A stretch of 64,000 nt of DNA. Source: Xanthostigma xanthostigma (Eukaryota; Arthropoda; Insecta; Raphidioptera; Raphidiidae). The stretch covers positions 8,100,001 to 8,164,000 of the forward strand of contig OY754466.1 in the NCBI GenBank assembly GCA_963575645.1. The letters run 5' to 3'. Below the pieces are notes generated by a model, which was not told the origin of the DNA, did not search any database, and worked only from the letters and a program-made list of their open reading frames with translations. This document shows positions 9,486 to 64,000 of this stretch, piece by piece. A program made the translations under genes and the position numbers. Numbering within the stretch: position 1 is the first letter of the stretch; every line of letters starts with the position of its first letter.

Positions 9486-11566
9486 TCGCACGTTGAAAAC
9501 AATAGTGACACTATATAAAAAAGTTGACTTTTCACCTTTTGTAAGATTCATGTTTTACTGCAAAAGTGTCACTATACGAAAATTTTTATTTCTCATAAAC
9601 CCACTTACTTCCTCTAGACTGAGCTAGTGTCACTTTATATTTTGAAAGAATTGCCCATGGTCATGACTGATATAACGACACTATTTTGATTGTGTCAAAG
9701 CAGTTGTTTGGTACGCACGTCGCTGTAAGTGAAAAAGTGACACATTTTGTTAAACGACAGTTTACTGCGATTATAGTCCGGGAGCTGTCGATCTAAAAAG
9801 CCCCCTCATATTGTGCATGCAATTTTTTTTATGTAAATTAATAGTTTAAAAGTATATAAACAAGAAACGCTTGGTTTGCGTTGATTTAAATAGCCGAAAA
9901 AATGTTTAAAAAAATTAATTATAAAAAAATGACATTAATGTTTCTCCTACATCACGGATATTGGTTGCTAGCATCCAATTTTACAAAAAATTTCGTGCTT
10001 TTTAAGAAAACATTCGCGCAAACCAATTTTTTTTGCCGAGAGAGTCAGGCAACCCTCTTAATGTTTGTGATGAGGGAGAAAATTTCACCGTCATTCGTAA
10101 CATAATTTTTTTTTTTTCATTTTATTCGTTTTAATGTGAATTTTAAGAATATGTAGGTTTGCGGGCTCTAAAATTGCCGGAAATACTCCGCAAACCAGTT
10201 TTAAATGCGCTAGCTCCAAGCTTATTTTCCACTAGTAATATTTAAATCAATAAATTTATATTAAAATAAATGTTTTTTGTAGAACTACTGTTGTTCCACA
10301 ATTATTATAATCTTGTTTGTTATATTAATATTGATTTTGTTTCTTACAAAATTTAATTTTTCTTTTTTTTTTATACATGATACAGTTGCTGCAGTGGAAT
10401 AACTTATAGAAATTTTTCTCTTTCTTTCTTCTGTACGCTTGAAATTTACCTGCATCTGCTATAGGGTATACATAATACTTTAAGACAGAGAAGAAGATAT
10501 AGAACCAAGAGAAAACAATCGATGGAATATTGATGATATTGATCTCGATTGTTGATAATAAATAAATTATGTTGGAGCATAAACTCGTGTCAATTATTTT
10601 AAATTTATTTGACTATTTAAACTGTCTAAAAAAAAATCCCTATTTTTCCTATGATCATATATATCCTTTCATAATTATAAATCTAAAAAAAAATTCAATA
10701 TTTAATTTTATATAACATTTATTTTAATATAAATTTATTGATTTAAATATTACTAGTGGAAAATAAGCTTGGAGCTAGAGCATTTAAAACTGGTTTGCGG
10801 AGTATTTCCGGCAATTTTAGAGCCCGCAAACCTACATATTCTTAAAATTCACATTAAAACGAATAAAATGAAAAAAAAAAAATTATGTTACGAATGACGG
10901 TGAAATTTTCTCCCTCATCACAAACTTTAAGAGGGTTGCCTGACTCTCTCGGCAAAAAAAATTGGTTTGCGCGAATGTTTTCTTAAAAAGCACGAAATTT
11001 TTTGTAAAATTAGATGCTAGCAACCAATATCCGTGATGTAGGAGAAACATTAATGTCATTTTTTTATAATTAATTTTTTTAAACATTTTTTCGGCTATTT
11101 AAATCAACGCAAACCAAGCGTTTCTTGTTTATATACTTTTAAACTATTAATTTACATAAAAAAAGTGTATGCACATATGAGGGGGCTTTTTAGATCGACA
11201 GCTCCCGGACTATTACAGTTGCTACAAAAATTAATGCAAGTAAGTAATACATAAAATGACACATTTTGTTTAGTGACACTTTTTGCAGTTGAAGTCTCCA
11301 ATTTACTGATTATAGGTTATGACAACAATGACACTAAACAAAAAATTATTGTAAAAAGGTCTTTTTTTAATAACTTTATTTTTAACATTGTGGTCAAAAA
11401 ATAAATTAAAACAATAATAAATTGTCTCATTATTAACAAAAGAATCTCTATAAGCAGTATTTTAATAGTAACTTTTTTAGGACAAAACAATAATATTAAA
11501 ACTAAAAAATGCTCTACTGTAAAATGTCATTTTTTACATAATGCCACTTTTGTTTTCAACGTGCGA
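9486..11566. mobile_element. outer inverted-repeat element rich in AGTGACAC motifs
   Basis: It starts TCGCACGTTGAAAACAA and ends with the complement (GTTTTCAACGTGCGA). Between these ends and the inner element, the 8-mer AGTGTCAC or AGTGACAC occurs repeatedly on both sides (for example near 9506, 9565, 9624, 9735, 11273 and 11327). The inner 1.4-kb element (9774-11212) is a later insertion, flanked by a TTA duplication. Confidence 0.65.
9774..11212. mobile_element. PIF/Harbinger-type foldback element with TTA duplication
   Basis: Terminal inverted repeats begin TAGTCCGGGAGCTGTCGATC and end with the complement. They are flanked by TTA at 9771-9773 and 11213-11215. A 3-bp TWA duplication is the hallmark of PIF/Harbinger transposons. 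The arms are about 480 bp each and nearly identical, so the copy is young. A 67-codon frame appears in both arms (9902-10105 and 10883-11086) only because the arms mirror each other. No transposase is present. Confidence 0.75.
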
Positions 11567-22189: not shown

Positions 22190-22195
22190 TTTATT
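22190..22195 (-). promoter_or_regulatory. AATAAA polyadenylation signal
   Basis: On the minus strand AATAAA lies 106 nt after the stop codon of the elongin-B-like gene, a normal 3' UTR length, with no competing signal closer to the stop. Confidence 0.6.
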
Positions 22196-22300: not shown

Positions 22301-22403
22301 TTAATAAAAAGGACCAGGAGTTGACGGCTGCAAAATTTCTGGAAGCGGCGAAGGCTCGGCGTAGGGTGTAACGTCTCTATCTTCGAAATTACCGTCTTCC
22401 AGC
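22301..22403 (-). CDS. elongin-B-like exon 4 (terminal)
   Basis: 103 nt ending in TAA. The acceptor is GTTAACAG. It encodes FEDRDVTPYAEPSPLPEILQ, the proline-rich elongin B tail (compare TPYS-PP-LP-VMK in the family), and ends with PGPFY. Confidence 0.85.
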
Positions 22404-25400
22404 CTGTTAACGAAACATTGGGTGTTATACAAATATTTAACATATAAACGGCGACATAAAGCTAGTTATACAGAGTGGCCGGGCCTGTACCTCGATCACT
22501 TTTTTTCTGAACCCATAAATTGCATGTAATTCACTACAAGATGGCGGCAAATTAACGACGATAACTCGGTATACTCCAGAGAGGCAACGGTCAATTAAGT
22601 TATTTTGATAAATATTTTTTCTCCTTTCAAAATATCCGTCACGTTATAAAATGTTCGAGATAAAATAAATAAACATAGAGATATTAGACTAGAGTACGCG
22701 AGTGAGCCGTGAAAGTGCCTGCAATTCAGAGAGAGAACAGTGTTCCTTATCTCTATGGTAACTAATGATACAAAACAATGCTGATTTGAGTAAACATATA
22801 TATCTAATGATACGGAACGTTTGCAGCGTTCTCTCTCTGAACTGCAGACACTGCATACCCGATAACGTACTCTAGTAACTTATATATATCTCTATGACAA
22901 TAAATTCAAATCAAGTAGGTGTAGACTTATTAAAGATGTAAAATTGATATTATATACTTGTTTGAAAAGAGAAAAATTGATCACCGCGAAAAGCGTTTTT
23001 ATTTTAACGCGATAATATTATGTTCATTCTGAAGGTCCAGGTAAAAACATTTTTGAAATCGGATGAGTAGTTTCGGAGATTACCTCCTACATAATATTAT
23101 AGTATAGATTAAAAATAAAATAAATTGGATGTAATCAAAGATAGGCTCCTAAATACGTCTGATCACAACGAAATAGAAAATTTCAATTATATTTGTTTGT
23201 TTCGTCAGCGTAGCTAACAGAAACTCAAAACGAAACATTGTTATTGTCAAAAGACCCAACACAATATTTAAAAAAAACATTGACTGTTGCAGCTCTGGTA
23301 TTTACGGAGCCATCGGCCATTAATTAAAGAATATGTATAGGCTTCGATGTAGGTTTATCTTAAAAAGTAATCGAGACGCAGACCCGGGGACCCACGTCTG
23401 TAAATATCTAGATTGCTTAGTGACTGACTACTTTACCTGTGAACCATGGTTAGAAACGCGGGTTTTTCAGCCGGTGCAGTACTTATATTAAGATTGTAAA
23501 CGGCAAGGATTGAATTATCCTCCATGATCATGTTATCCTGGTTGAAAAGTCGTATGTTCCGGGCAGGAACTCCCGAGAGCGCTAAAACAAAATTAGAAAC
23601 ATTTTTCAGTCAGCTGTCTTTATTGGAGTTCTAGACCGAGCTAACAAGATTCATAATTGCAAGGTTGAAGAACGCGTCGTCAGAAATTTTTGGGAACGAC
23701 TTTCGATGCAGTAACAATGTGCAGTGTAAACTCCATTTAACGTCACTCGATATAACGACAAACTCCTTAAAACGTCGAATTTACGTAACTATAGTTGGTG
23801 TACCTTGTCGCTCACACTTTATCGCTACTTATTTTTGTGTATATCAGCTTTTAAGAAAAGAATGTTCGCTCAAAATAGGTACAGTGTAAACTCCATTTAA
23901 CGTCACTCGATATAGCGACAAACTTCTTAAAACGTCGAAATTATCTCTAGTTGGATTACCTTGTTGCTTAAACAATGATACACTCTAAATAACAACACAC
24001 CCACTCTAAATAACGTCATCATTAAGCAATAAACAGTACTTGTTTGTTATTTTGTTGCTTTGTTGTCGGCATCATGCATACCGATGATTCTAGGATATTT
24101 CACATTTTGTTTGTTTGAGATAGTATGAATGCTTGTTGGTCAGTTGTAAATTTTATATAATATGAGTAAATACATATTATAGTAAAAAATATTAATGGAT
24201 TATTTCTTCTCTCCATTTAACGACAACTCTCAATAACGCCACAAAGTGCACAGTCCCTTGAATGTTGGTATATAGAGTTTACACTGTAATTAGGGTTTTT
24301 ATATATGCTGGAACTTTTTATTGTTTAGTACTCTTTGAGCTCCTAGTAGTTACAGGTAGCTTCCATGAATGAGAGAGGTACATTTTTGTTGTAATTTACA
24401 GGTAAAACGATCAATAAAGACCATTGGAACAATAAAGATTACTACTGGTCGCTCTTCAGAAATCATGATTTAGTACATACTTTAAGGAAATTAATCAGAA
24501 ACAGCTGACGACAGGTAGATTTAAAACAAAACACAACTTACACTCTATCCTTTGTTTGAGCTTAAGCACACTGTCGGTGTTGTTCATCTGGAACACGAAG
24601 GTTTGCTTCTTTCTGCGAACCATAAGGTAACAATCTCGGATCTGAAAGTTAAAAGTTTTAGGTTAGAAACAACATTGTAGAGCAGAATTAGGGTGACCAA
24701 TCATCCCGGATTTTTCGAGACAGTCCCGGATTAAAGCCCTGTGTCCCGCATTAATATATGACCCGGAAAATGCCCCGCATTATCATGGGAATTTTATAAT
24801 CTAAATATATAAAAGGAAGCCATGACTGACTGTACTATCAACGCACGTTATGACGTACGCTGAGAACGGATTTTTTAAAATCCCTAAAAGGGTGTAACGG
24901 GGGTTCAAAATTTACATGAAGAAATCATATAAGATAGAAGTATCAATTCGAAAATGCGCAGGATGACACCTGTCAACAAATAAAGAAACACGTGCTTAAT
25001 GGTTTTTACAAAAACAACCCCTTCAGAGGCTGAAAAGAGGTACATCAATATGTGTCTCATTTTCAAGGCTTGTGAGGACGATGATCACGTGAATGTCATC
25101 AATTTTGAAATTTATTAGGGGGTATATATTAGATATCGTGTCCATCGAGATAATTATTAATAAAAATCGCAGGATTGTGGACAAAAAAGTTATTTATTTA
25201 GTGTACGACGTTTCGTCTATAAATTTAGACTTTTTTCAAGTACAAATGTGAAAATTTAAAACAATAATTATGAAAATAAACATTAATTACTAACCATAGC
25301 AATTAACAAAAGTTGAGGTACATCAAATTTTCACATTTGTACTTGAAAAAGTCTAAATTTATTGAAGAGTTCTAATCAGACGTTAATCAAAGATTTAAAT

Positions 25401-26229
25401 AACTTTTTGTCCACAATCCTGCGATTTTTATTAATAATTTATTAGGGGGGTCTACGACGAGAAAAGAGTAACTATGCCTAATAATGGGAATGCATCCGTA
25501 TTTCGTTTCAATATTCGATTATATTTTACTCGTGTGACTATTGACTATACGGATATATATATATAAAACTAAAAAGGCTCATACATTTTGTTTTTTTTTT
25601 CGATTTTTTTGACGATCCCAGACACGTGATTAGAGTACCTAAGGGGTAAAACCCGGCACTTGGCATATATCTGTTTGTTTTTTGACGAGATAACGTCTTA
25701 TAAATTGATGAAACACTAGCTGCACGCACGAAAAAGTGTAACGTTCCGCTTGACCTTGTGCGTGCAAGCGAGAGCGCAGTATAAGCGATAGAGAAGCACG
25801 ATCGGCCCAAGTTTGACAGCTACTAAAATTTAGGTTATGTATTATATATGATATTCGAGCGGAATACATTATCACGTAAAACTATCGTCCGTAAACCGAC
25901 TTTACAGACAACCAATTTTTTTTTATAAATCTGGTGAATCAGTGAAATGTTTCCTGTAAAACATTGTGAATACCCGAATTTTAGAGATTTATATTTACAA
26001 AAAAAAATGTTTTGAACTGTCATACTTTTGCCCCAATAATTTTAACAGTGTATAAAACTGGCCAAAGATAATAATTAATATTTTACTAAAATCGGAATAT
26101 AGCGAAAAACCATAATGTCTCATTGAAAACGGGACACGTGTTTCTCCAGATGTTACCAATGAGAAAAACAAAATATTTAACTACAATATTAATAAATCAA
26201 GAAATTTCAAATATTATACTTACATCCAT
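22301..26229 (-). CDS. elongin-B-like ubiquitin-fold protein (4 exons, 117 aa)
   Basis: Joining 26229-26224, 24641-24542, 23581-23437 and 22403-22301 on the minus strand gives one open frame of 117 codons. Every intron has GT-AG ends and all phases agree. Known elongin B proteins are about 118 residues. This one has the family start (MD, then YLMVRRKK near residues 7-14), the ubiquitin-like segment with LFNQDN and MEDNS (about 48-60), and the C-terminal TPYAEPSPLPEILQP (96-110). Elongin B is the ubiquitin-like partner of elongin C in elongin and in CRL2/CRL5 ligases. Typical insect orthologues have a near-invariant TTIFTDAKE block; here it is replaced by QTFVFQMNN, so this is a divergent paralogue or a fast-evolving copy. 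A TATA box and AATAAA frame the gene. Identification is firm at family level, less so at orthologue level. Confidence 0.82.
22674..22896. mobile_element. foldback MITE in elongin-B-like intron 3
   Basis: The ends CATAGAGATAT and complement flank inner arms around GACTAGAGTACGCGAGT and TTCAGAGAGAGAAC. About 223 bp, no coding capacity. Confidence 0.7.
22975..23106 (-). mobile_element. Helitron fragment in elongin-B-like intron 3
   Basis: It carries CGCGAAAAGCGTTTTTATTT, TCATTCTGAAGGTCCA and ATGAGTAGTTTCGGAGATTA, the same interior as the Helitrons at 7715-8362. It ends at TAGTATAGAT. Confidence 0.65.
23437..23581 (-). CDS. elongin-B-like exon 3
   Basis: 145 nt, residues 36-84 with split codons at both ends. 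The acceptor is TTTTGTTTTAG and the donor CAG/GTAAAG. It encodes GVPARNIRLFNQDNMIMEDN and PAFLTMVHR, matching the second half of the ubiquitin fold in elongin B (RLYNQDN-like and MEDD-like motifs). Confidence 0.85.
23722..24286. mobile_element. pogo-like MITE with duplicated left end
   Basis: CAGTGTAAACTCCATTTAACG occurs at 23722 and again at 23882, and the right end is AGAGTTTACACTG followed by TA. CAGTG...CACTG ends with TA target sites fit pogo/Tc1-mariner MITEs. It lies in intron 2 of the elongin-B-like gene. A relative is at 44557-45052. Confidence 0.65.
24542..24641 (-). CDS. elongin-B-like exon 2
   Basis: 100 nt, residues 3-35 plus one base. The acceptor is CTTTCAG and the donor GTAAGT. 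It encodes YLMVRRKKQTFVFQ and SVLKLKQRIE, the first beta hairpin and helix of the ubiquitin-like fold. Confidence 0.85.
24690..25000 (+). mobile_element. repeat end plus Helitron 5' fragment
   Basis: 24690-24795 has AGGGTGACCAATCATCCCGG and two CCCGGATT words, the end of an unidentified element. At 24800 the Helitron start TCTAAATATATAAAAGGAAG begins, collinear with 1763 (CCCTAAAAGGGTGTAACGGG). It lies in intron 1 of the elongin-B-like gene. Confidence 0.55.
25152..25438. repeat. foldback element with hammerhead-like hairpin
   Basis: The arms ATTATTAATAAAAATCGCAG and complement are about 110 bp. On the minus strand the left arm contains GTCTAAATTTATAGAC followed by GAAACGTCGT, a hairpin plus GAAACGUC like that at 14659. 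The phrase TCAGACGTTAATCAAAGATT is shared with 41875 and 48200. It lies in intron 1 of the elongin-B-like gene. Confidence 0.65.
25684..25928. mobile_element. ACGTGATAACGT-family element, copy 1
   Basis: One end is GACGAGATAACGTCTTATAA. The other is TATCACGTAAAACTATCGTC, continuing through GACTTTACAGACAACC into a T-run. Five more copies lie at 30271, 37911, 40783, 53764 and 57902. The near-terminal ACGTGATAACGT word is in inverted orientation at the two ends. No coding capacity; superfamily unknown. Confidence 0.7.
26224..26229 (-). CDS. elongin-B-like exon 1 (start codon exon)
   Basis: Only ATG GAT (Met-Asp) is coded, followed at once by a consensus donor GTAAGT. The context AACAAAAATGG is a good insect translation start. 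A first coding exon of only two codons explains why ORF scanning misses the start. Confidence 0.75.
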
Positions 26230-26321: not shown

Positions 26322-26329
26322 CTTTTATA
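26322..26329 (-). promoter_or_regulatory. TATA box of the elongin-B-like gene
   Basis: TATAAAAG on the minus strand is 93 nt upstream of the ATG. A start about 30 nt downstream (near 26295) would give a 5' UTR of about 65 nt. Confidence 0.55.
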
Positions 26330-28314: not shown

Positions 28315-28476
28315 ATACTTACCTGGCGTAGGGGCTACCGTGATCATCAAGGCGGTTCCCCCGGGGTGAGGCTCTTCCATTGCACTTCGGTCGGGCTGAC
28401 CCCTGCGATTATCCCTAATGCGGATAACTCGGGCGCATAATTTTTGGTAGTCGGGACTGCGTACGCGCTGTCCCGG
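28315..28476 (+). ncRNA. U1 spliceosomal snRNA gene
   Basis: It starts with the invariant 5' splice-site-pairing sequence ATACTTACCTG and carries all four U1 stem-loops, including the U1A-binding loop ATTGCAC, the Sm site AATTTTTGG (28439-28447) and a 3' stem CGGGAC...GTCCCG. Length is 162 nt, normal for insects. Stem III reads TTATCC...GGATAA, a paired change from the usual insect form, which argues for function. One loop I base at RNA position 34 is C where the U1-70K-binding loop normally has G (GATCATCAAG), so it may be a variant or a degenerating copy. No poly-A tail suggests it is not a retrocopy. U5 lies 1.5 kb downstream on the same strand. Confidence 0.93.
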
Positions 28477-28978
28477 ATAATATTAATTTAATCACAGCAT
28501 TTTTTCGATAGCCAATCTTTACACATCGGGACAAATACGGGTGTAGAATGTAGATGTTATTTTTTTCGTATATTTTATTTTTTTTATTTGGAAATTTATA
28601 AAATTCGTCAACTAGTTTTTTTCCCTAAATTAAACTGGTAGATGTGCCCTACTCGTCTCGTAATTTCGTAAACGTCAAAAAAATGGAAAAAACGTATTTA
28701 TAGAGCTGGCAATTTCACAGCTCTGCGTTTATTAAAGAAAAAAGTGTAAGCCGCTGTTTTTCGGAAAAAAACGCCGCTATAAATATTAAATATATTATGA
28801 GTTGGATATATCTTAATACACTAATTGACTAATACAATAGATTACAATTACACGACGCACTACTGAATTAATCCTTATGAAAATATTTCAGTTTAATTAC
28901 GTTCAATTTACTCTGTGAGTAAAATATAACCTTAGATTTGTAAAACCTACACAAATAGTTAATTCTTCCAAACTTAAT
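28477..28978. other. U1 3' flank, anonymous
   Basis: AT-rich spacer between U1 and the palindrome at 28979. No gene or repeat was recognised. Confidence 0.4.
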
Positions 28979-29206
28979 AAAATATAGTTTAAAAAAAACT
29001 AAAAAACACGCTTTATATCGCACTAAAAAGTAAAAAATAATTGTTTTAAAATAAGCTTAAAAAGCGTGGGGCGCTTTGTTCCACATTTTCGTACATCGAG
29101 CGCCCAACGCTTTTTAAGCTTATTTTAAAACAATTATTTTTTACTTTTTAGTGCGATATAAAGCGTGTTTTTTAGTTTTTTTTAAACTATATTTTATTTT
29201 TCACTT
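28979..29206. repeat. large hairpin (foldback) element, copy 2
   Basis: Arms AATATAGTTTAAAAAAAACT and complement are continuous through AAAGCGTGGGGCGCTTTG. It has the same loop (CACATTTTCGTACATCGAGC) as copy 1 at 2729-2990. Nearly the whole unit pairs. Confidence 0.8.
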
Positions 29207-29209
29207 TTT

Positions 29210-29710
29210 AGTTTGAGGATCTATAAAAGAATTTATTAATCCTGGGGGTCCTAATAAGGATAATGGGAAACTGTTATCAAATTATTGCATTGTCATCGGT
29301 CCTTGATACGTATGCAAAGTTTCAAATTAATCTGAGGATCTATAAAAGAATTTATTAATCCTGGGGGTCCTAATAAGGATAATGGGAAACTGTTATCAAA
29401 TTATTGCATTGTCATCGGTCCTTGATACGTATGCAAAGTTTCAAATTAATCAGACTTCGGGAAATTGGTGAAAATAAAGCGTTTACTACACAGGATCTAT
29501 AAAAGAATTTATTAATCCTGGGGGTCCTAATAAGGATAATGGGAAACTGTTATCAAATTATTGCATTGTCATCGGTCCTTGATACGTATGCAAAGTTTCA
29601 AATTAATCAGACTTCGGGAAATTGGTGAAAATTATGCTCAAAGATTCCGTTACGGAGTTAGTTACATACATACATATTTACAACCCAAACTAATATAAAG
29701 CGTTTAAAAA
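29210..29710 (+). repeat. three tandem units plus CATACATACA tail
   Basis: A unit of about 118 bp beginning GGATCTATAAAAGAATTTAT and containing CCTGGGGGTCCTAATAAGG occurs three times (about 29216, 29334 and 29493). The second and third copies are followed by CAGACTTCGGGAAATTGGTG. The block ends with TTACATACATACATA and ACTAATATAAAGCG, the same tail that follows hairpin copy 1 near 3205-3246. Confidence 0.75.
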
Positions 29711-30005
29711 TAATGAGTCGACCGTTATTTATTCAACAAATATTCTCGTAAATAACTTTAAATTTTCCGACTGTTCGGTTGTATTTTTTTTATAAGTAGT
29801 TGTAAAAATTAAAAACAATGCAATAAATTAATTGTGGAGCGCTTATGGAATTTTGTGTGGCGTCACGAGATGTAGTAGTTACTTCGTACTTGCACGAACT
29901 GTACCGACGTTACACGAACAATTGAAACTCATTGTAATATTTCAGCGTTCGCACACTCGACGGTGAGGTTTTTAGTCGACCAGTCTGCTCTTTCTGTTGG
30001 TTGTT

Positions 30006-30128
30006 AACTCTGGTCTCCCTTCAGTATCGTATAAATCTTTCGCCTTTTACTAAAGATTTCCGTGGAGGGGGACAACTCAAATGAGTATCTAACCAATTTT
30101 TTGGTGGCCCGGCTGCTTGGCTGGGCCT
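30006..30128 (+). ncRNA. U5 spliceosomal snRNA gene
   Basis: It contains the invariant U5 stem-loop I, with ATAAATCTTTCGCC followed by TTTTACTAAAGATTT. Loop 1 GCCTTTTAC, which holds exon ends during splicing, is intact. The lower stem GTCTCCC/GGGGGAC keeps pairing despite changes from the usual form. The Sm site AATTTTTTGG (30095-30104) and the 3' stem GGCCCGGC...GCTGGGCC follow. About 123 nt, normal length; the exact 5' end is uncertain by one or two bases. All structural features look intact, so a functional gene is likely. Confidence 0.93.
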
Positions 30129-33436: not shown

Positions 33437-36400
33437 GTATACCTATGTCCTATACAGATTGTATCAAATCAAAACGGTCCATAGAACATTCTGTGTGTAA
33501 GACAGAGACGATATTATATAAAGAACTAAAGCAGTAAGTAAGAATGAGATAAATGATCGCTAATAGTTATAGTGGTTATACAATCTGATAGTATCATCTT
33601 TGTTTTCTACAGTAAAAATAACAATTTTATCAAATGTCAGTATTCACTAGTGAAATTATTGATAAAATGGCTATTTATTATAATCGATTAAGATATTGTT
33701 TGGCAGAACGTGGAGGTTTTTTTGAACATTTAATAAATTAATTATTAAAACTTTTGTACCAGATATAAATAATAATACGAATTAATATTACGGTTTAGTT
33801 GTTTTAATTGATAAATTGGTAAAAAGATTTACAGTGTACGTAATTATTTATTTACCTAATCACAATAACTATTAGCGATCATTTATCTCATTCTTACTTA
33901 CTGCTTTATATATCGTCTCTGTCTTACACACAGAATGTTCTATGGACCGTTTTGATTTGATACAATCTGTATATAAAACAATTGATACGCACTTTCCTAA
34001 AATGATTATTTTGACGTCGGATGCGTCAACAAAAAAGATTATTTAAAAATGTTCAAGCCTATTGTTTTAAAAAGCAGTAGTAACGGACTCTTGTCAGATC
34101 TGTACGTGCGCAGCACGTTTGTTATGGTTTTTTAAATGTTCAAGACGTGTACTGCTGTAAAAAGCACTACTAACGGACGCTTGTTAGATCTGTTCGCGCC
34201 TAGCACATTTGTTATGGTTTTAGCGATTAATTTTTTGTCTAGAGCAGCGCCCCCTGGGGCGTTATTATCGTAATATCTATCTAAGAACCATCGCAGACGA
34301 ATTACAAACCCTTTACAGAAAACCGCATCTGATTTGATCAAACCGTTTTCCAGATAAATGGCGACATTCGAATGCACAAACAAACAAACAATCTCTCAGG
34401 CTAAACGCATATACCTGCTCCGTTCCCTTGTAGGTAAAATGAATTGAAACTTCGGAACACAAAAATACAATGTTTATATGAAAATAACCACTACAAATGC
34501 CTGCCTGCGATTTGCGGAGCCAATCAGCTGTCGTATTTTAACCTTGAACAAATGGCGCCAAATTTGAAATCTGAAAATTCGCATTCTAAAGCGGGTTCGA
34601 AACGTTTTTTTCCGCTAGCTTTTTGTGTCTCAGACAAACCATGTGTATAGATCATATCATGCATGATTTAATTTAGATAAAGGTTTGGTGATATTGACAA
34701 CTAGCAAAACCTGTTAAAAAAAAAAACAATATTTTTATCGTAGAAATAGAGTTAAAAATTTAAACGACCAAAGTCCAGTCTTCATAGTCTCTTAGCTTAT
34801 CAACCGGCCGTGAAAAGCGCACGAAATATTTTTGTAATTACTAATTGCTAATAAATAATTATTATTAAGTAATGGTGTGTTGTTCGTAATACAGTGAATT
34901 TATTTTTATTATTAAACATAATTTAACACATTGTTAATATACGGGATATTACAAAAGTATATAAACACACTTCCAATCGAGGACGGAATCCCACATTCAG
35001 GCAGGGAGGGACCCAAAGCGAAATTAATTTAAACTTATGAAAAGTAGTCTTTTTACCCGGCTACTTCATGCTGCGTACAGCGTAAGCTGGTTTTCTGCAT
35101 TTTAATAGTCGGGTTTTAGTTTTTTGAACCTTTATTTTCCTTATTACTTTCACTACAAAACACTAATTGGCACTCATTCAAAAGGCTATTTGATCCTTAT
35201 TTTGTCGACAGGAATTTTTATTTCGCTTAAATGTAATCGTTTCACAGAATAAAAAACAGCACTAGAAATTTTAAATATTTTAAATTGGCGCGAAAACACA
35301 AACCGCCATGCTTACCTACTGTGACGTCATTCTTGCAGTACCTATACATAAGCGGCTTTATTTCGCTTAAATGTAATCGTTTTACCGGATAAAAAACAGC
35401 ACTCGAAATTTTAAATATTTTAAATTGGCTCAAAGACACGAACCGCCATGCTTACCTACTGTGACGTCATTCTTGTAGTACCTATACATAAGCGGCTTTA
35501 TTTCGCTTAAATGTAATCGTTTTACCGGATAAAAAACAGCACTCGAAATTTTAAATATTTTAAATTGGCGCAAAGACACGAACCGCCATGCTTACCTACT
35601 GTGACGTCATTCTTGTAGTACCTATACATAAGCGGCTTTATTTCGCTTAAATGTAATCGTTTTACCGGATAAAAAACAGCACTCGAAATTTTATATATTT
35701 TAAATTGACGCAAAGACACGAACCGCCGTGCTTACTTACTGTGACGTCATTCTTGCAGTACCTATACATAAGCGGCTTTATTTCGCTTAAATGTAATCGT
35801 TTTACCGGATAAAAAAACAGCACTAGAAATTTTAAATATTTTAAATTGGCGCGAAAACACGAACCGCCATGCTTACCTACTGTGACGTCATTCTTGTAGT
35901 ACCTATACATAAGCGGCTTAGTACCGGTTGCGTGAGGTTCGATTAATATTGACTCACATGTGTAGGTATATGCGTGTTTACTACAAGTCTGACGTCACAC
36001 TTCAACCCATCATGGCGAACAGCGTTTTAAATTTTAAAATTGAAATAATAAAATCAACCTCTTGTTTTTCTGAATCCAAATCGATAATTTCTGATTCGAT
36101 AAATTATCGTATCGCATGAGTGTATCATTTATTTTGTAGTGTCACCTATTTTAAAATAAAAGTCATTTTCAATATATACATACGTAACTAAATCATGTTT
36201 AGTAATGAAATAAATTCACGCTTATTTTTGCGTACAGGTCGCGTGATTTAAAAAATAATTTATATTTTTTCTTATTGTTATTGAAAAACAAACTACTTAT
36301 TGTTCAAATTCGCTCGTTTGTTTTCAGAGAATGCGAATTTGTTTTTCTGTTGCAATTCTCCTTTGTTATTGAAAATATTAATTTTATGTATTGAGTCGTT

Positions 36401-39400: not shown

Positions 39401-42400
39401 TCGACTCGTTTGATGCGGTTATACGTTATACGAACGAAGTCATACCGTATCACGTATGCGACGCGCCACTATGCGATGGTACATGCTTGATTTGATGCCA
39501 GAGAACATACACTTCTTGATGCTGTTAGTGCACGATTGTATGTCGTATGAAAAGTAACGAGTAAAGTAACGATACGAAAGTAATGGGTACTGGTTCTTTA
39601 AGTAATGAATACATACGGGTACACAATTTCTCGTTACTTTTACAGCTCTAGTTATCAATATCGAACTGACAGTTTTTAACGGAGTGGCCACAAACTCGAG
39701 AAAGTCAGATCATTTCTGATAATGTGGGAAACATAAAAATATTAATTTGTACGAATCCAGTACGATACCTCGATGAGCCCAAATTTTGACTTTTTTTTTA
39801 AGTCATAGAAAACGCTAAATTTTGACATTCCAAAAAAAAAAAAACTGCGGATTATTCACAAATTTCCTCAAAAATATGTAAAAACTTTTCGTCTTTCACT
39901 GTCATTTTTTTACGAGGCTAGAAATGCTGCTAGAAACGCTGCTAGGAGTTCTGCTAGCTGGTAGGCTGGGTACGAAGCTGGAAATGACGTCACTGCGGGC
40001 TCCCTTGCTAGCTCAGAAGATAGGTTTTATAATTAGAACAGGGGCTATTTTCCCTGCTAGATTTGCGGCTAGGTATAAGCAAGAACCAATCAGGAAGCAG
40101 TATCTTCACGTGGGCACTTGACAAACGCCCACATGGCGTCATTCTGCAAGACAACAGACACGTTTTGCTCTGTGTTTATATTCGAACTGTCACTGCGCGC
40201 GCTTCAGTTCTATCCACAAAACAAACTTGAAAAATAGTCTCGTGTGAAGCGAGCACTTAACAGCAATCAAAAAAACCTGCGCTAGAAAACTAGTAGGCAA
40301 ATCTAGCAGCGTTTCTAGCCTTGTGTGCAGTGGCCTTAACCAATCAGAAATCACATATATACATAAAAAACTGGTGTAGAATGACTGTATTACTATCTTG
40401 ACCACGTAATTTAATTTTTAAAAATCAATTTTCCGCACTTAAAACGGTTAATAATACTGTTATATGTTATTTAAAATAATATTGTGTATTTCCAATGGAT
40501 ATTTTGCACATTGAGTTATATCGTACTTTAACCATATTGTACATATTAACTGGCACAATAAGCGATCTACTTTGTTTCATTTGCATGTATGAAGAAAAAA
40601 GTAAAGGAAAGTTGAAACAAATGTGTATTATTGGCTATTTTGACAGTTTTTGTGTATTTTGATGTCGAAATACAACCGATAGACATGTTTTTAATTTCAT
40701 TTTCACAATTTTTCCCTATTAAATGGTACGTTTTAGCTGTGCGTAATTTTGTTTGACATCACAAAAAACGAATCGTTTTTTTGACGTGATAACGTCTTAT
40801 AAATTGATGAATCACCAATATTATAAATTGATAAAACACCGGCTGCATGTTCGAAAAAGTGTAACGTAACGTTCCTAACGCGTAACGTTCCGCCTGACCC
40901 TGTGCGTGCTTTTTGCTAATTTCTCGCTCAATTTAAATCAGATCGGTTTGAAACCAGTCTTAAACGAAAGAGGAGAACATTTTACATAGATTTCGTATAA
41001 CAGAATTTGCCTAAACAGTTTTTTTATACAAATTTATATAGAAAAATATTTTATACAAATTTATATAGAAAAATAGCTGTATAAATGCAATGTTGTGTAA
41101 TGCATGACGCGACGCGGTCGGTTGTCTTTGTTTGCCGTACATGGAAATTAGAAGCAAACGTAAATGTCTTGTCTTAACATGAAAACAGCTGCATTTCTAA
41201 TGTTTAATTCAATTTTTTGACATTAGTATATTGTGAAATGCAAAGCCTGCTAAGTTAAGTATTGGAATAACTAATTATTATTAGAACATAATACTTTGTA
41301 AGTTGCAAACGTCACTTTTGACATTTCTTATCATTCCGACACCAAGGATAAGCGGATTGAAACCAAATTTTGGGAGGTTTAGGTTATGTATTACGGAATA
41401 CGTTATCACGTAAAACTATCGTCCGTAAACCGACTTTACAGACAACCATTTTTTTTGTTTCAGAGCAACGAATGCTACACTTCCGGCGGAGACGTTGCGA
41501 GTCGGGGCGGCCCGCTCGTCGAGTGCCCACTGTGTTTAGCCGAACTGCCGGCCGACGAGGTAGCCGAATTGTCGGCGTGCGGTCATAAGGCGTGTGCAAC
41601 ATGCCTGCGACAGTATCTTCGCATTGAGATATCGGAGAGCAGGGTTTGCGTCGCGTGTCCGGAATGCGCCGAGCCGATGCACCCAAACGGTATGTCGATC
41701 GATAAGATGTTTAAAACTGAAAGTCGTACCTGAATTTGACAATCCTAAGAAGTTATTAGTTGATTTAACAAATTAAAACATGTAAATAAAATTGTCGACC
41801 AATTTTTTTCAGACCATACATGGTCTGAAAAAGTTTTAAAAAAGTTTTATTTATTTGAAGAGTTCTATTCAGACGTTAATCAAAGATTTAAATTAAAACA
41901 TGCTTGTGAAAAATTCAATTTGTATCTTTGCAGAAATCCGCGCAATTCTGGACGATCCCGCTTTATACGAGAAGTACGAAGACTTCATGGTGAGGAGGGT
42001 TTTAGCTGTCGATCCTGACACTAGATGGTGTCCTGCTCCCGACTGCAGGTAAGCTGTCGAGTATCTTGCACATATTCACTGGTAGATGTCGCCAATAACT
42101 GAACGATGTTGAAAAATGACTTCAGTTTAACGAATAACTGACGGCCATCGCTGGTACTCATGTCGACCATACATAGACGGCTTGCTTTAAGGATGTGTAT
42201 AAGGTCAAATTGTGTAGTACATCTAATTAAATTTTCAAAATCATAAATATATAAAAATTTTCATTTGCGAAGGCTTTGTGTTAATTTTAATTATTTTTTA
42301 TGGCAGATTTTCTAAAAATTTTCCTATAATTAAATATTATGAACAAATATTTAACATTTAATTTGACTACTGTGACTTTAGTCAAAAACAATCAGGCAAC

Positions 42401-45400
42401 GTGGCTGTCCACGTGGTCTTCTGACACTCGGAAACATAACGTGGAGATAGAATTTCTGACCTCAAAAATTTGAAGCTATGGATACTATAAAAATAATAAT
42501 AAATAAAAATGTCAAATCAAAATTCAAAGAAAGTTTTTTTATTATGAATTATTATCAAGCAATCAAAGTGGTGATTAAGAAATCAATTATCATTACGCAA
42601 AGTAATAAACTGATACATAAAGTCAGTAATTAAAGTTTACTTTTGGCAGGTTTTTGTTAAAGCAAAGTTTTTTTCAAATTAATTGCAGATAATCTGTACG
42701 AACATTTTAGTTTTCCAAACAAAAATAAATATCTCAAACCTTTTACATACTTTTGTTACATTACAGCGTTTATCCGACATATAAACGCATTTTGTGTTCT
42801 AAATGCACATAAATCTCAAAAATGACAGGTCCAGAATAATTGACAGTTGGTTCACGTGATATGACATTTCATAAATGCGATTTTTATTATCGACATGCAA
42901 GAACGCGACGTTGCCTCATTGTCTCATTACATCCGCCATTAATTAAGATTAAGATTCGGAGAATTGATTTCATCACTTTCAAAATAAAATATTTCCGTGA
43001 AATTGCCGGTAACCCCACGTTTTTTTGGGCTTGAAAAATCGCAAATTGTACAAAGAAACTGATAATAAGTTTTTGAATCATAAATCATTGAAATAAAATG
43101 ATAAATGTTTTAATCTTCTCAAAATTTTTAACACTTCCGGTAGAAATAACATTGAGTAAATGGTGATTTTAAAATGAATTTTTTCATAAAAAACGTCGGT
43201 AAGGTATCTATTTTTTGGTTTTAATCGATGAAGGAGGTCTAATTCTATAACGTATTTTAAATTTAGGCAAAAATCTTCGAATTCAAAAATGTTATATACA
43301 TCCTTAAATGAACCTTCGACTATGACGAAACCTTCATTTTAATTTTGATTCAAATTTTATAATAGACCATTTGACTCTTATTTTTAAATTGTCTTAAAAT
43401 AATTTGCACTGATTTTTCACTCGGCACTTGGTAGAACATGATTAATACTAACAAATAGTAAAAACAAAAAAATGCGCGAAACTTTCACGTGTTTTTTTGT
43501 TTTTACTATTTGTCTTAAAATGTTCACATCGTAGCATTAGGCCACAGGAATTTTTATTTCTCTTAAATGCAATCGTTTCGTGAGATAAAATAGAACTCAT
43601 TCATTTAAATACCTAAATTGGCGCGAAAACACGAGCTGTCATATCTACCTACTCTGACGTCATTCTTGTAGTACCTGTACAAACAAGTGCAGATAAGACT
43701 CGGTATCGTTGACGCGAGTCTTATTTAGTGTTTACTCACGTGTGTGTCTCGTGTGTTTTGTAGGTTATGCGTGTTTACTACAAATTTGACGTCACACTTT
43801 AAACCATCATGGCGGGCAGCGTTTTTTGATATGTCAAAAAATTGCAGATTTATAATTGAAATAATTTACCTAGTGTTTTTGTGAATACAAATCAATAATT
43901 CGTGATTTCTTATTCGTTAAATTATCATGTTCACACAATGTAATCATTTAGTTTTTATATAGTGTCTAATACCCTATTTTTGTATTTTTGATCGAAGCTG
44001 ATTATTGTATTCAAAGTGCAATTTTCGACCGAAGGAAGTCGAAATCGATTATTCGGTCATATTCTAGTCACTTTTAGGGTTTCGTACCTCAAAAGGAAAA
44101 AAAGAACCCTTATTGGATCACTTTGTTGTCCGTCTGTCTGTCAAGACTTGGGAATCAAAACCTATAGGGTACTTCCCGTTGACCTATTTGATGCCATGGC
44201 GATTTCGAGATGATGTGTGCGTTTTTCGACTGTCGCTTTTGTTTCTAGTTATGCGGTGGTCGCTAGCGGATGCGCGAGCTGTCCGAAACTGCACTGCGAG
44301 AGACCGGGCTGCGATTACTACTTTTGTTACCATTGCAAAGCCGAATGGCATCCAAACCAAACGTGCGATGCTGCGCGCGCTCAGCGAAGCCCTAACGTTC
44401 GCAGTTCGTCCGTCAGTTTTAGCCAGGACTCGAGACAAAGTAAGTGACAATATAAATGTTCAAAACTTATGTAAAAGTGTGCCAGGTGTTCTTGTGCTGG
44501 TGTTTGAAGTTAAAAGTTTTTTTAATAAGTACTCTTGAAAATTACATTTTAAAGTACAGTGTAAACTCTTTATAACGAAACTCAAGGGATCGAGCATTTT
44601 TTATCGTTATAGAGAGTTACCGTTATATGGAGTGAAGAAAGAAAAACAACCAAATTAACAATAATCTTCAATGTACTGTATAATCTCTTTATAACGAATT
44701 TTAAGGGACTGAACATTTTTTTCGTTATAAAGAATTTTCGTTATATGGAGGGAAGAAAGAAAAATAACCAATTTTCACAAAATTAATTTATTCCAAACAC
44801 ATATACCTATAGTTTGGCGTCATCAAGTGCTTGTTGAATAGATGGTGATGGTTCAGAATGGTCCTCTTTATGTCTGTAAACATTTGCTGGCGCCTAAATA
44901 TGAACATATTTCTTCGTAATAGAGAATGGCTGTTGCGTTATAAAGAGGGTATTAATGTATAGGTTTTAAGGTAAACCAACCAAATCGTAAAAATTTCGAC
45001 GTTATAGGGAGTTTTTCGTTATAACGAAGGACGTTATAAAGAGTTTACACTGTATTTGAATAACACACAAACAAGATTGCCATTTTTAGATGCAATTCTT
45101 TGATAAAATAAAATTAAAAAAAAATTGTGAACATGAATACAAAAACGGCTACGCAACTTTCGAAAAATTATTTCTCGGCCGCGCAGCTTAGAGGGATTTT
45201 TGGTGGAGCCCGATTTTGCAATGTAAGTCGACGAAAAAATTGTGGCAATCTGCAAATTCGGGCGAAGCCGTACCGGGCAACTAGTACTTAATATATGTCC
45301 ACGAGAAGAAAATCGAAATTCTGACTCTGTTAAGTTCTATCTTTAAGTGTTCAAAGTTTCAGCTCTAAAAGTCAATGGGGGATATTCTGAAAATGCGGAA

Positions 45401-62475: not shown

Positions 62476-63077
62476 AAAAAAAATGTTTTTCATCATTTCC
62501 ATAAAATTCCTAAAATGACGAAATCAGTTTCCACACATTCGAGAAAATTTGAAGAACTTTTCCATGGTTACAATATTGAATTTTGGTAGAAGTGAAAGTC
62601 TCTCAATTATCGGTATATTTTAGCGCTTTAACTCGATCACTCTATGTACTAGTACCGCGGTTGTATTCCTTCCTCTTTGCCCACTCGGTCACGCCACTAA
62701 TTCTAACACACTTTTTCTATAATTTATAATCGATCGTAATCATTCCTACCTACCGCGCCTAAAGAAGTTTCACTTCAAAATGAATTTTATAATACGCGAT
62801 TTGTATGTATTTAAAAAAAACTTTTATGGCTATAAAAAAGGAAATATATAAATAAAATATTAACTATATTGTTGAGCAATAAATATTTCATGTTTTTATT
62901 AATTGCGGATTAAGAAAACATGTTACAGGTGTTATATTCAAAGCAATGGCACGTCAATCCGGTGTCGGAGAGGCAACCGGATGGCGAGTGGTAATCTGGG
63001 TCTATGAGTGGTACAGAACCCCCTGGTAGCGGCCAAAGTGACCCCAAATGGACGGGGGCGGCGATATGGGGGTGGGG
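62476..63077. other. anonymous sequence before the terminal palindrome
   Basis: GGCAACCGGATGG and GGGGCGGCGATATGGGGGTG (62970-63075) probably belong to the same element as the palindrome, whose right-hand counterpart would lie past the window. Nothing else was recognised. Confidence 0.4.
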
Positions 63078-64000
63078 CAAAATCGAAAAATGTTTGAAAA
63101 GGCAACCGGATAAAAATGCGGTTGCATTGAAGGAAATACCCTAATTATATAATAAATTTTTTTTGCCATCCGAACCACGCGGGCCGTTTTTGCACTAGCG
63201 AATAAAAAAAAAATAAAAAAAAAACTGAAAAGGCAACCGCTTCAAAATTAGTGAGCATACTTATTGACACCACCAAACATTGGGAAAAAATTGCCATCCG
63301 ATCCTGATGGGCAGTTTCGGAGAAACAACCCCTCAAAGTCGCCGAAAAACCCTTTTTTTCGATTTTTTCAACAATAAGTAAAAAAAACACACTAAATATT
63401 GTTCAAATCGGATGGCATTCGAAATTTATACTGTCCTAAGTACAAATAATAGTGTGTATCAATGCCATCCGATTTTGATTATTTTTACCCCTATTAAGCC
63501 AACCCCCAAAACTCAATAACAATAAAAATAATGCCATACGCTTTATAAAATTGTTATTTTCATGAGTTTTGGGGGTGGCTAAATAGGGGTAAATTTAATC
63601 GAAATCGGATGGCATTGATACACACTATTTTTTGTACTTAGGACAGTATAAATTTCGAATGCCATCCGATTTGAACAATTTTTAGTGTGTTTTTTTTACT
63701 TATTGTTGAAAAAATCGAAAAAAAGGGTTTTTCGGCGACTTTGAGGGGTTGTTTCTCCGAAACTGCCCATCAGGATCGGATGGCAATTTTTTCCCAATGT
63801 TTGGTGGTGTCAATAAGTATGCTCACTAATTTTGAAGCGGTTGCCTTTTCAGTTTTTTTTTTATTTTTTTTTTATTCGCTAGTGCAAAAACGGCCCGCGT
63901 GGTTCGGATGGCAAAAAAAATTTATTATATAATTAGGGTATTTCCTTCAATGCAACCGCATTTTTATCCGGTTGCCTTTTCAAACATTTTTCGATTTTGC
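63078..64000. repeat. long near-perfect palindrome running off the window
   Basis: GCAAAATCGAAAAATGTTTG at 63078 is the exact complement of the last 20 bases of the window. The arms are about 460 bp each and centre near 63540. Both arms give the identical 81-codon frame (63145-63390 and 63687-63932), a mirror artefact. GCCATCCGAT and GGCAACCGG words recur. It is probably a foldback transposon; the true right end is not visible. Confidence 0.88.

Follow-up and report, generated by a model that had tools for sequence, protein, structure and literature searches.

A strongly diverged elongin B-like gene of four short exons, probably a second copy, in Xanthostigma xanthostigma

A stretch of 64,000 nucleotides from Xanthostigma xanthostigma (contig OY754466.1, positions 8,100,001 to 8,164,000 of the forward strand), which we refer to as the window, carries on its minus strand a gene that resembles elongin B (EloB). 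Its four exons join to 354 bases, that is, 117 codons and a stop codon, all of its introns are of the GT-AG type, and the spliced product reads MDIRDCYLMVRRKKQTFVFQMNNTDSVLKLKQRIESLSGVPARNIRLFNQDNMIMEDNSILAVYNLNISTAPAEKPAFLTMVHRLEDGNFEDRDVTPYAEPSPLPEILQPSTPGPFY. The gene is real, and its coordinates and splice sites are those of Table 1; the original prediction, which had proposed a minus-strand gene of four exons and 117 codons with consistent phases and consensus splice sites, is confirmed in that both the coordinates and the GT-AG sites were recovered. The interpretation given with that prediction is supported in part. We consider it rather probable that the locus is a functional gene whose product is a strongly diverged EloB, most likely a paralogue retained in addition to a conventional elongin B at another place in the genome, and we infer that its status as a second copy is likely.

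In the complexes known so far, the ubiquitin-like domain of EloB pairs with elongin C; this pair joins BC-box receptors with Cul2 or Cul5, and it is also part of the elongin A complex (PMC3765967, PMC4403949, PMC4878042). High conservation of elongin B has been described for human, Drosophila, and C. elegans (PMC3765967), and fly EloB is reported to be essential, its loss being subviable or lethal (PMC3804554).

Because the exons of the gene model had been joined manually by a reader who already suspected elongin B, we employed an alignment that was blind to the model. When human EloB was compared with the window by tblastn, no exon matched on its own, and a spliced alignment was used for this reason: human EloB was aligned to both strands by a dynamic-programming script that permits GT-AG introns in three phases. 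The minus strand scored 125.8 versus 40.8 for the plus strand, with the alignment ending at EloB residue 109 (base 22313, minus strand). Null scores were obtained from 200 dinucleotide-shuffled versions of the window, each scanned on one strand (mean 43.7, standard deviation 4.5, maximum 56.7), and from 40 shuffled human EloB queries run against the real minus strand (mean 49.2, maximum 60.3). The resemblance of the locus to EloB is far beyond chance. One might still suspect that a reader seeking EloB had assembled short open stretches by accident, given that the exons are short and that none of them is matched alone by tblastn; an alignment blind to the model nevertheless finds the same place, at a score above the maxima of both null sets, and the probability that we give to such an accident is negligible.

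The score is spread over the homologous exons and their junctions. Masking exon 2, 3, or 4 reduced it to 90.2, 62.7, or 87.7, respectively, and masking any single donor or acceptor of introns 2 and 3 (four sites) reduced it to values from 106.1 to 118.7. Masking exon 1, the exon 1 donor, or the first acceptor left the score unchanged; the two codons of exon 1 are therefore without homology evidence of their own.

The Pfam model of the ubiquitin family (PF00240) matches residues 11-66 of the window protein at 34.3 bits, against a cut-off of 25.4 (E 2e-8). A Protein Data Bank (PDB) sequence search with the spliced protein gave 208 distinct sequences at E <1, of which the best 60 are considered here. 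Eighteen of these 60 are EloB chains, each matched in a single stretch that begins at residue 5 and ends at 107-114, with a best E of 2e-11 (47.1 bits), whereas the three highest matches are polyubiquitins, whose scores are summed over nine weak repeats of some 6-7 bits each. Together with the gene model and the spliced score, these EloB matches support the claim of an intact but divergent elongin B-like gene. In pairwise comparison with human EloB, 31/110 residues are identical and 56/110 positive.

Within the locus, EloB residues 1-76 score 84.7 versus 55.7 for ubiquitin. EloB residues 77-118 alone score 57.0, higher than each of 200 shuffled tails (maximum 41.0), in agreement with the elongin B signature that had been claimed for the tail. 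A ubiquitin query reached 58.5 on the whole minus strand; this value derives from the EloB-like locus, because it drops to 43.0, within the range of its 40 shuffles (maximum 50.6), once the locus is masked. As the tail beats 200/200 shuffled tails and ubiquitin fits worse, the protein is EloB-derived and more than ubiquitin-like, and these sequence comparisons show an EloB ancestry carried by the ubiquitin-like half and the tail half alike. The known protein to which it is nearest in form is human Elongin B (EloB, TCEB2; 118 amino acids, PDB 1lm8 chain B): the lengths are 117 versus 118 amino acids, and common to both are the MD start, an LM-x-RR-x-K core, a ubiquitin-like domain, and, after this domain, a tail with P-x-x-L-P-x-x-x-x-P. 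The window protein differs in having three additional residues near its start, and it differs from the ubiquitin family in that the EloB tail is present and the Gly-Gly end absent.

The signals around the coding exons deserve individual consideration. Support for exon 1 comes from several of these: it supplies the MD start, as in EloB; its pattern, ATGGAY followed directly by the donor GTRAG, is found once when both strands of the window are scanned, against four matches of a looser pattern; and the possible TATA box lies 100 nt upstream. A TATA box and an AATAAA had been predicted, and both motifs are present; of the two, AATAAA is weak evidence, there being nine copies on the minus strand between 22000 and 26700, so that the copy at 22195 adds little, and the putative TATA box is one of three such sequences on the minus strand of the 64 kb, with TATAAA counted six times in a 4.7-kb region that includes the gene.

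Table 1. Features of the elongin B-like gene, in window coordinates
Feature	Position	Strand	Remarks
Possible TATA box TATAAAAG	26322..26329	-	100 nt upstream of the ATG
Exon 1, coding part	26224..26229	-	ATG GAT, encoding MD; donor gtaagt
Intron 1	24642..26223	-	1582 bases, phase 0, gtaagt...tttcag
Dispersed repeat in intron 1	25679-25933		
Inverted-repeat element in intron 1	25152-25439		
Exon 2	24542..24641	-	Residues 3 to 35 and the first base of codon 36; ubiquitin-like domain begins here
Intron 2	23582..24541	-	960 bases, phase 1, gtaagt...ttttag
Repeat copies in intron 2	23719-23812 and 23879-24015		
Exon 3	23437..23581	-	Remainder of the ubiquitin-like domain
Intron 3	22404..23436	-	1033 bases, phase 2, gtaaag...taacag
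Dispersed repeat in intron 3	22973-23092		
Exon 4	22301..22403	-	EloB C-terminal tail (TPYAEPSPLPEILQP) and stop codon
Possible polyadenylation signal AATAAA	22190..22195	-	3' of the stop codon

A gene that has diverged this strongly, with several repeats within its introns, should also be considered as a decaying duplicate that is still open by chance. The marks of a processed (retro-) pseudogene, namely the absence of introns and a disabled frame, are not found here: the locus has an open frame and three introns, and the latter disfavor a retrocopy. Neutral simulations were run (1000 per identity level) that start from the human EloB codons, use the base composition of the window, and leave out insertions and deletions. 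The frame remained free of stops in 52, 28, 11, and 3 of 1000 runs once identity to the starting sequence had fallen to 60, 50, 40, and 30%, respectively. The hydrophobic class, which the window protein retains at 58/77 changed sites, was kept to that extent in 5, 11, 2, and 0 of 1000 runs at the same levels, and its share of conservative changes (25/77) was reached in 152, 99, 37, and 9. Adding to these rare outcomes, the 117 codons contain neither stop nor frameshift, the splice sites are ordinary, and the G+C content of exons 2-4 (0.43-0.485) lies above that of the introns (0.33-0.34), as one might expect of a gene, although values of 0.45 or more are seen in 13% of all 100-base windows along the 64 kb. 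The open frame argues against a pseudogene, with a force that depends on the divergence from the gene's own ancestor; the simulations favor constraint, they do not prove it. Overall, we regard a pseudogene as very unlikely.

Several points weigh against a working EloB paralogue and should be kept in mind. In a separate set of 400 neutral runs at 70% identity, 11% were still open, and a young duplicate might for that reason be open by chance. At milder divergence there is nothing striking about the conservative changes, and since the simulated runs at 60 and 50% so often reach the observed share, this measure is informative at high divergence only. In the simulations human EloB takes the place of the true ancestor, insertions and deletions are omitted, and the observed alignment is itself optimized. 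Binding to elongin C cannot be assumed, because identity to human EloB is so low (31/110), and the elongin C contacts, of which one stretch (residues 9-14) is compared here, are reported to be dispersed over EloB (PMC3765967).

The original prediction had called TTIFTDAKE a near-invariant segment of EloB and noted its replacement, and indeed 1/9 of its residues is identical to human EloB. Identity amounts to 7/14 over residues 2-15 and to 3/6 over residues 9-14; human EloB residues 9-14 are reported to take part in elongin C binding, the elongin C contacts as a whole being spread along the entire EloB sequence (PMC3765967). Within the tail, residues 85-109 are 8/25 identical and 15/25 positive (identities counted), LPDVMK has become LPEILQ (two identical, four conservative), and residues 101-104 are 0/4 identical, all four changes being conservative. 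Residues 101-104 of EloB line the LPLP pocket, and the conventional EloB tail is reported to be strictly conserved to residue 104 (PMC2880568). Because TTIFTDAKE retains a single residue and residues 101-104 none, we read the window protein as EloB-related without being a conventional EloB. Replacement of TTIFTDAKE does not have to disrupt the fold, since the hydrophobic class is kept at so many of the changed sites.

Could this be the sole and ordinary elongin B of a lineage whose EloB evolves fast? When the locus was masked and both strands were rescanned with human EloB, the scores were 41.0 and 40.8, a second EloB was not detected within the window, and to this extent the idea is favored. 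Drosophila EloB residues can be read from two quantitative PCR primers, ELKRMIE and YGVTVS (PMC3804554). The window protein matches these at 4/7 and 2/6 positions and human EloB at 3/7 and 0/6, so that the fly residues are slightly nearer to the window protein; the matches are compatible with an insect-type ancestry and far too few to show it. Set against this is the distance to the known chains: human EloB reaches 256 bits with the human chain and 214 bits with the Tceb2-prov chain 7shk, a yardstick taken from non-insect chains, while the window protein reaches at most 47 bits against any EloB chain among the best 60 of 208 matches. We take chain 7shk to be from Xenopus. A sole, fast-evolving EloB seems unlikely to us.

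Alternatively, the protein might have left the elongin system as a ubiquitin-like protein that does not bind elongin C, acting as a free module or as a competitor of EloB. The replacement of TTIFTDAKE, together with the retention of half of the elongin C-binding stretch 9-14, would fit. In such a protein, however, one would expect the tail to be freed, and it still marks the protein as EloB (57.0 versus a maximum of 41.0); LPxxxxP is kept, and the intervening changes are conservative. We consider a departure from the elongin system improbable.

For a working EloB paralogue, the following mode of action may be envisaged. The window protein would fold into a ubiquitin-like domain that carries an extended tail and would pair with elongin C or with an elongin C paralogue, and this pair would serve as an adaptor for BC-box receptors in Cul2/Cul5 ligases, the receptors in view being SOCS-box or VHL-box proteins, or elongin A. 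The tail change from LPDVMK to LPEILQ might reshape the pocket for the LPxP motif of a receptor's cullin box, and a reshaped pocket could shift the set of receptors that the window protein serves. Duplicated core ligase parts are often tissue-restricted, for example to the germ line; a similar restriction of the EloB-like gene would be a guess by analogy.

A bolder form of this proposal is that one insect lineage has kept a second elongin B with an altered elongin C face and tail pocket and with BC-box receptors of its own, so that the Cul2/Cul5 adaptor is split into two paralogous systems. We put this forward tentatively and hold it to be doubtful. If it is a retained copy with a changed elongin C stretch and receptor pocket, the gene offers a natural experiment on which EloB contacts are needed, and it might point to tissue-specific ligases. 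If it is a plain diverged duplicate, it makes a useful gene annotation and little beyond. With a core ligase subunit as its relative, the gene is probably the second copy of a known protein and not a new kind of thing; retention across a lineage, with receptors of its own, would make it more interesting.

Relatives were sought more widely. Viral contigs scanned with patterns from human EloB and from the window protein gave 4 and 6 matches, respectively, none of which was confirmed as a relative, and the degenerate pattern FLMIRR(x)KTTIF had no match in genome contigs and viral contigs. Neither of these sets contained a match to a conserved part of a repeat in intron 1, and a scan for a repeat end of the moth type yielded nothing beyond loose matches. 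Among the matches listed in a search of the open-licence literature, which covered titles and the starts of abstracts, we found no report of an insect EloB paralogue, though one may exist in print.

The surroundings of the gene contain a number of other features. A full-length U1 spliceosomal RNA gene lies 2 kb upstream of the EloB-like gene (28315-28476, plus strand; Rfam RF00003, 150.5 bits), and a full-length U5 spliceosomal RNA gene follows 1.5 kb from it (30005-30127, plus strand; Rfam RF00020, 97.3 bits). Between the two, at 29214-29632, are direct repeats of 119 and 157 bases with 100% matches, which reflect either a duplication of very recent date or an artifact of the assembly.

Ten open frames of the window were run against Pfam, and one of them, at 41383-41733 on the plus strand, contains a RING finger (PF13639, E 4.1e-6; PF00097, E 1.3e-5). 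It resembles what we take to be the first RING of RNF19-type ligases and hence presumably belongs to an animal gene.

Repeats are abundant, and approximately 31% of the window is self-complementary or similar to another part of it. A tandem array at 35217-35919 consists of five 140-base units with 95% matches, and diverged copies of it are found near 43544-43957. Many long self-complementary elements are present, among them those at 28976-29198, 49814-50432, and 63077-64000 (96%), and the segments 9773-10274 and 10714-11213 are inverted copies of each other at 99%. The self-complementary elements look like foldback or inverted-repeat transposons.

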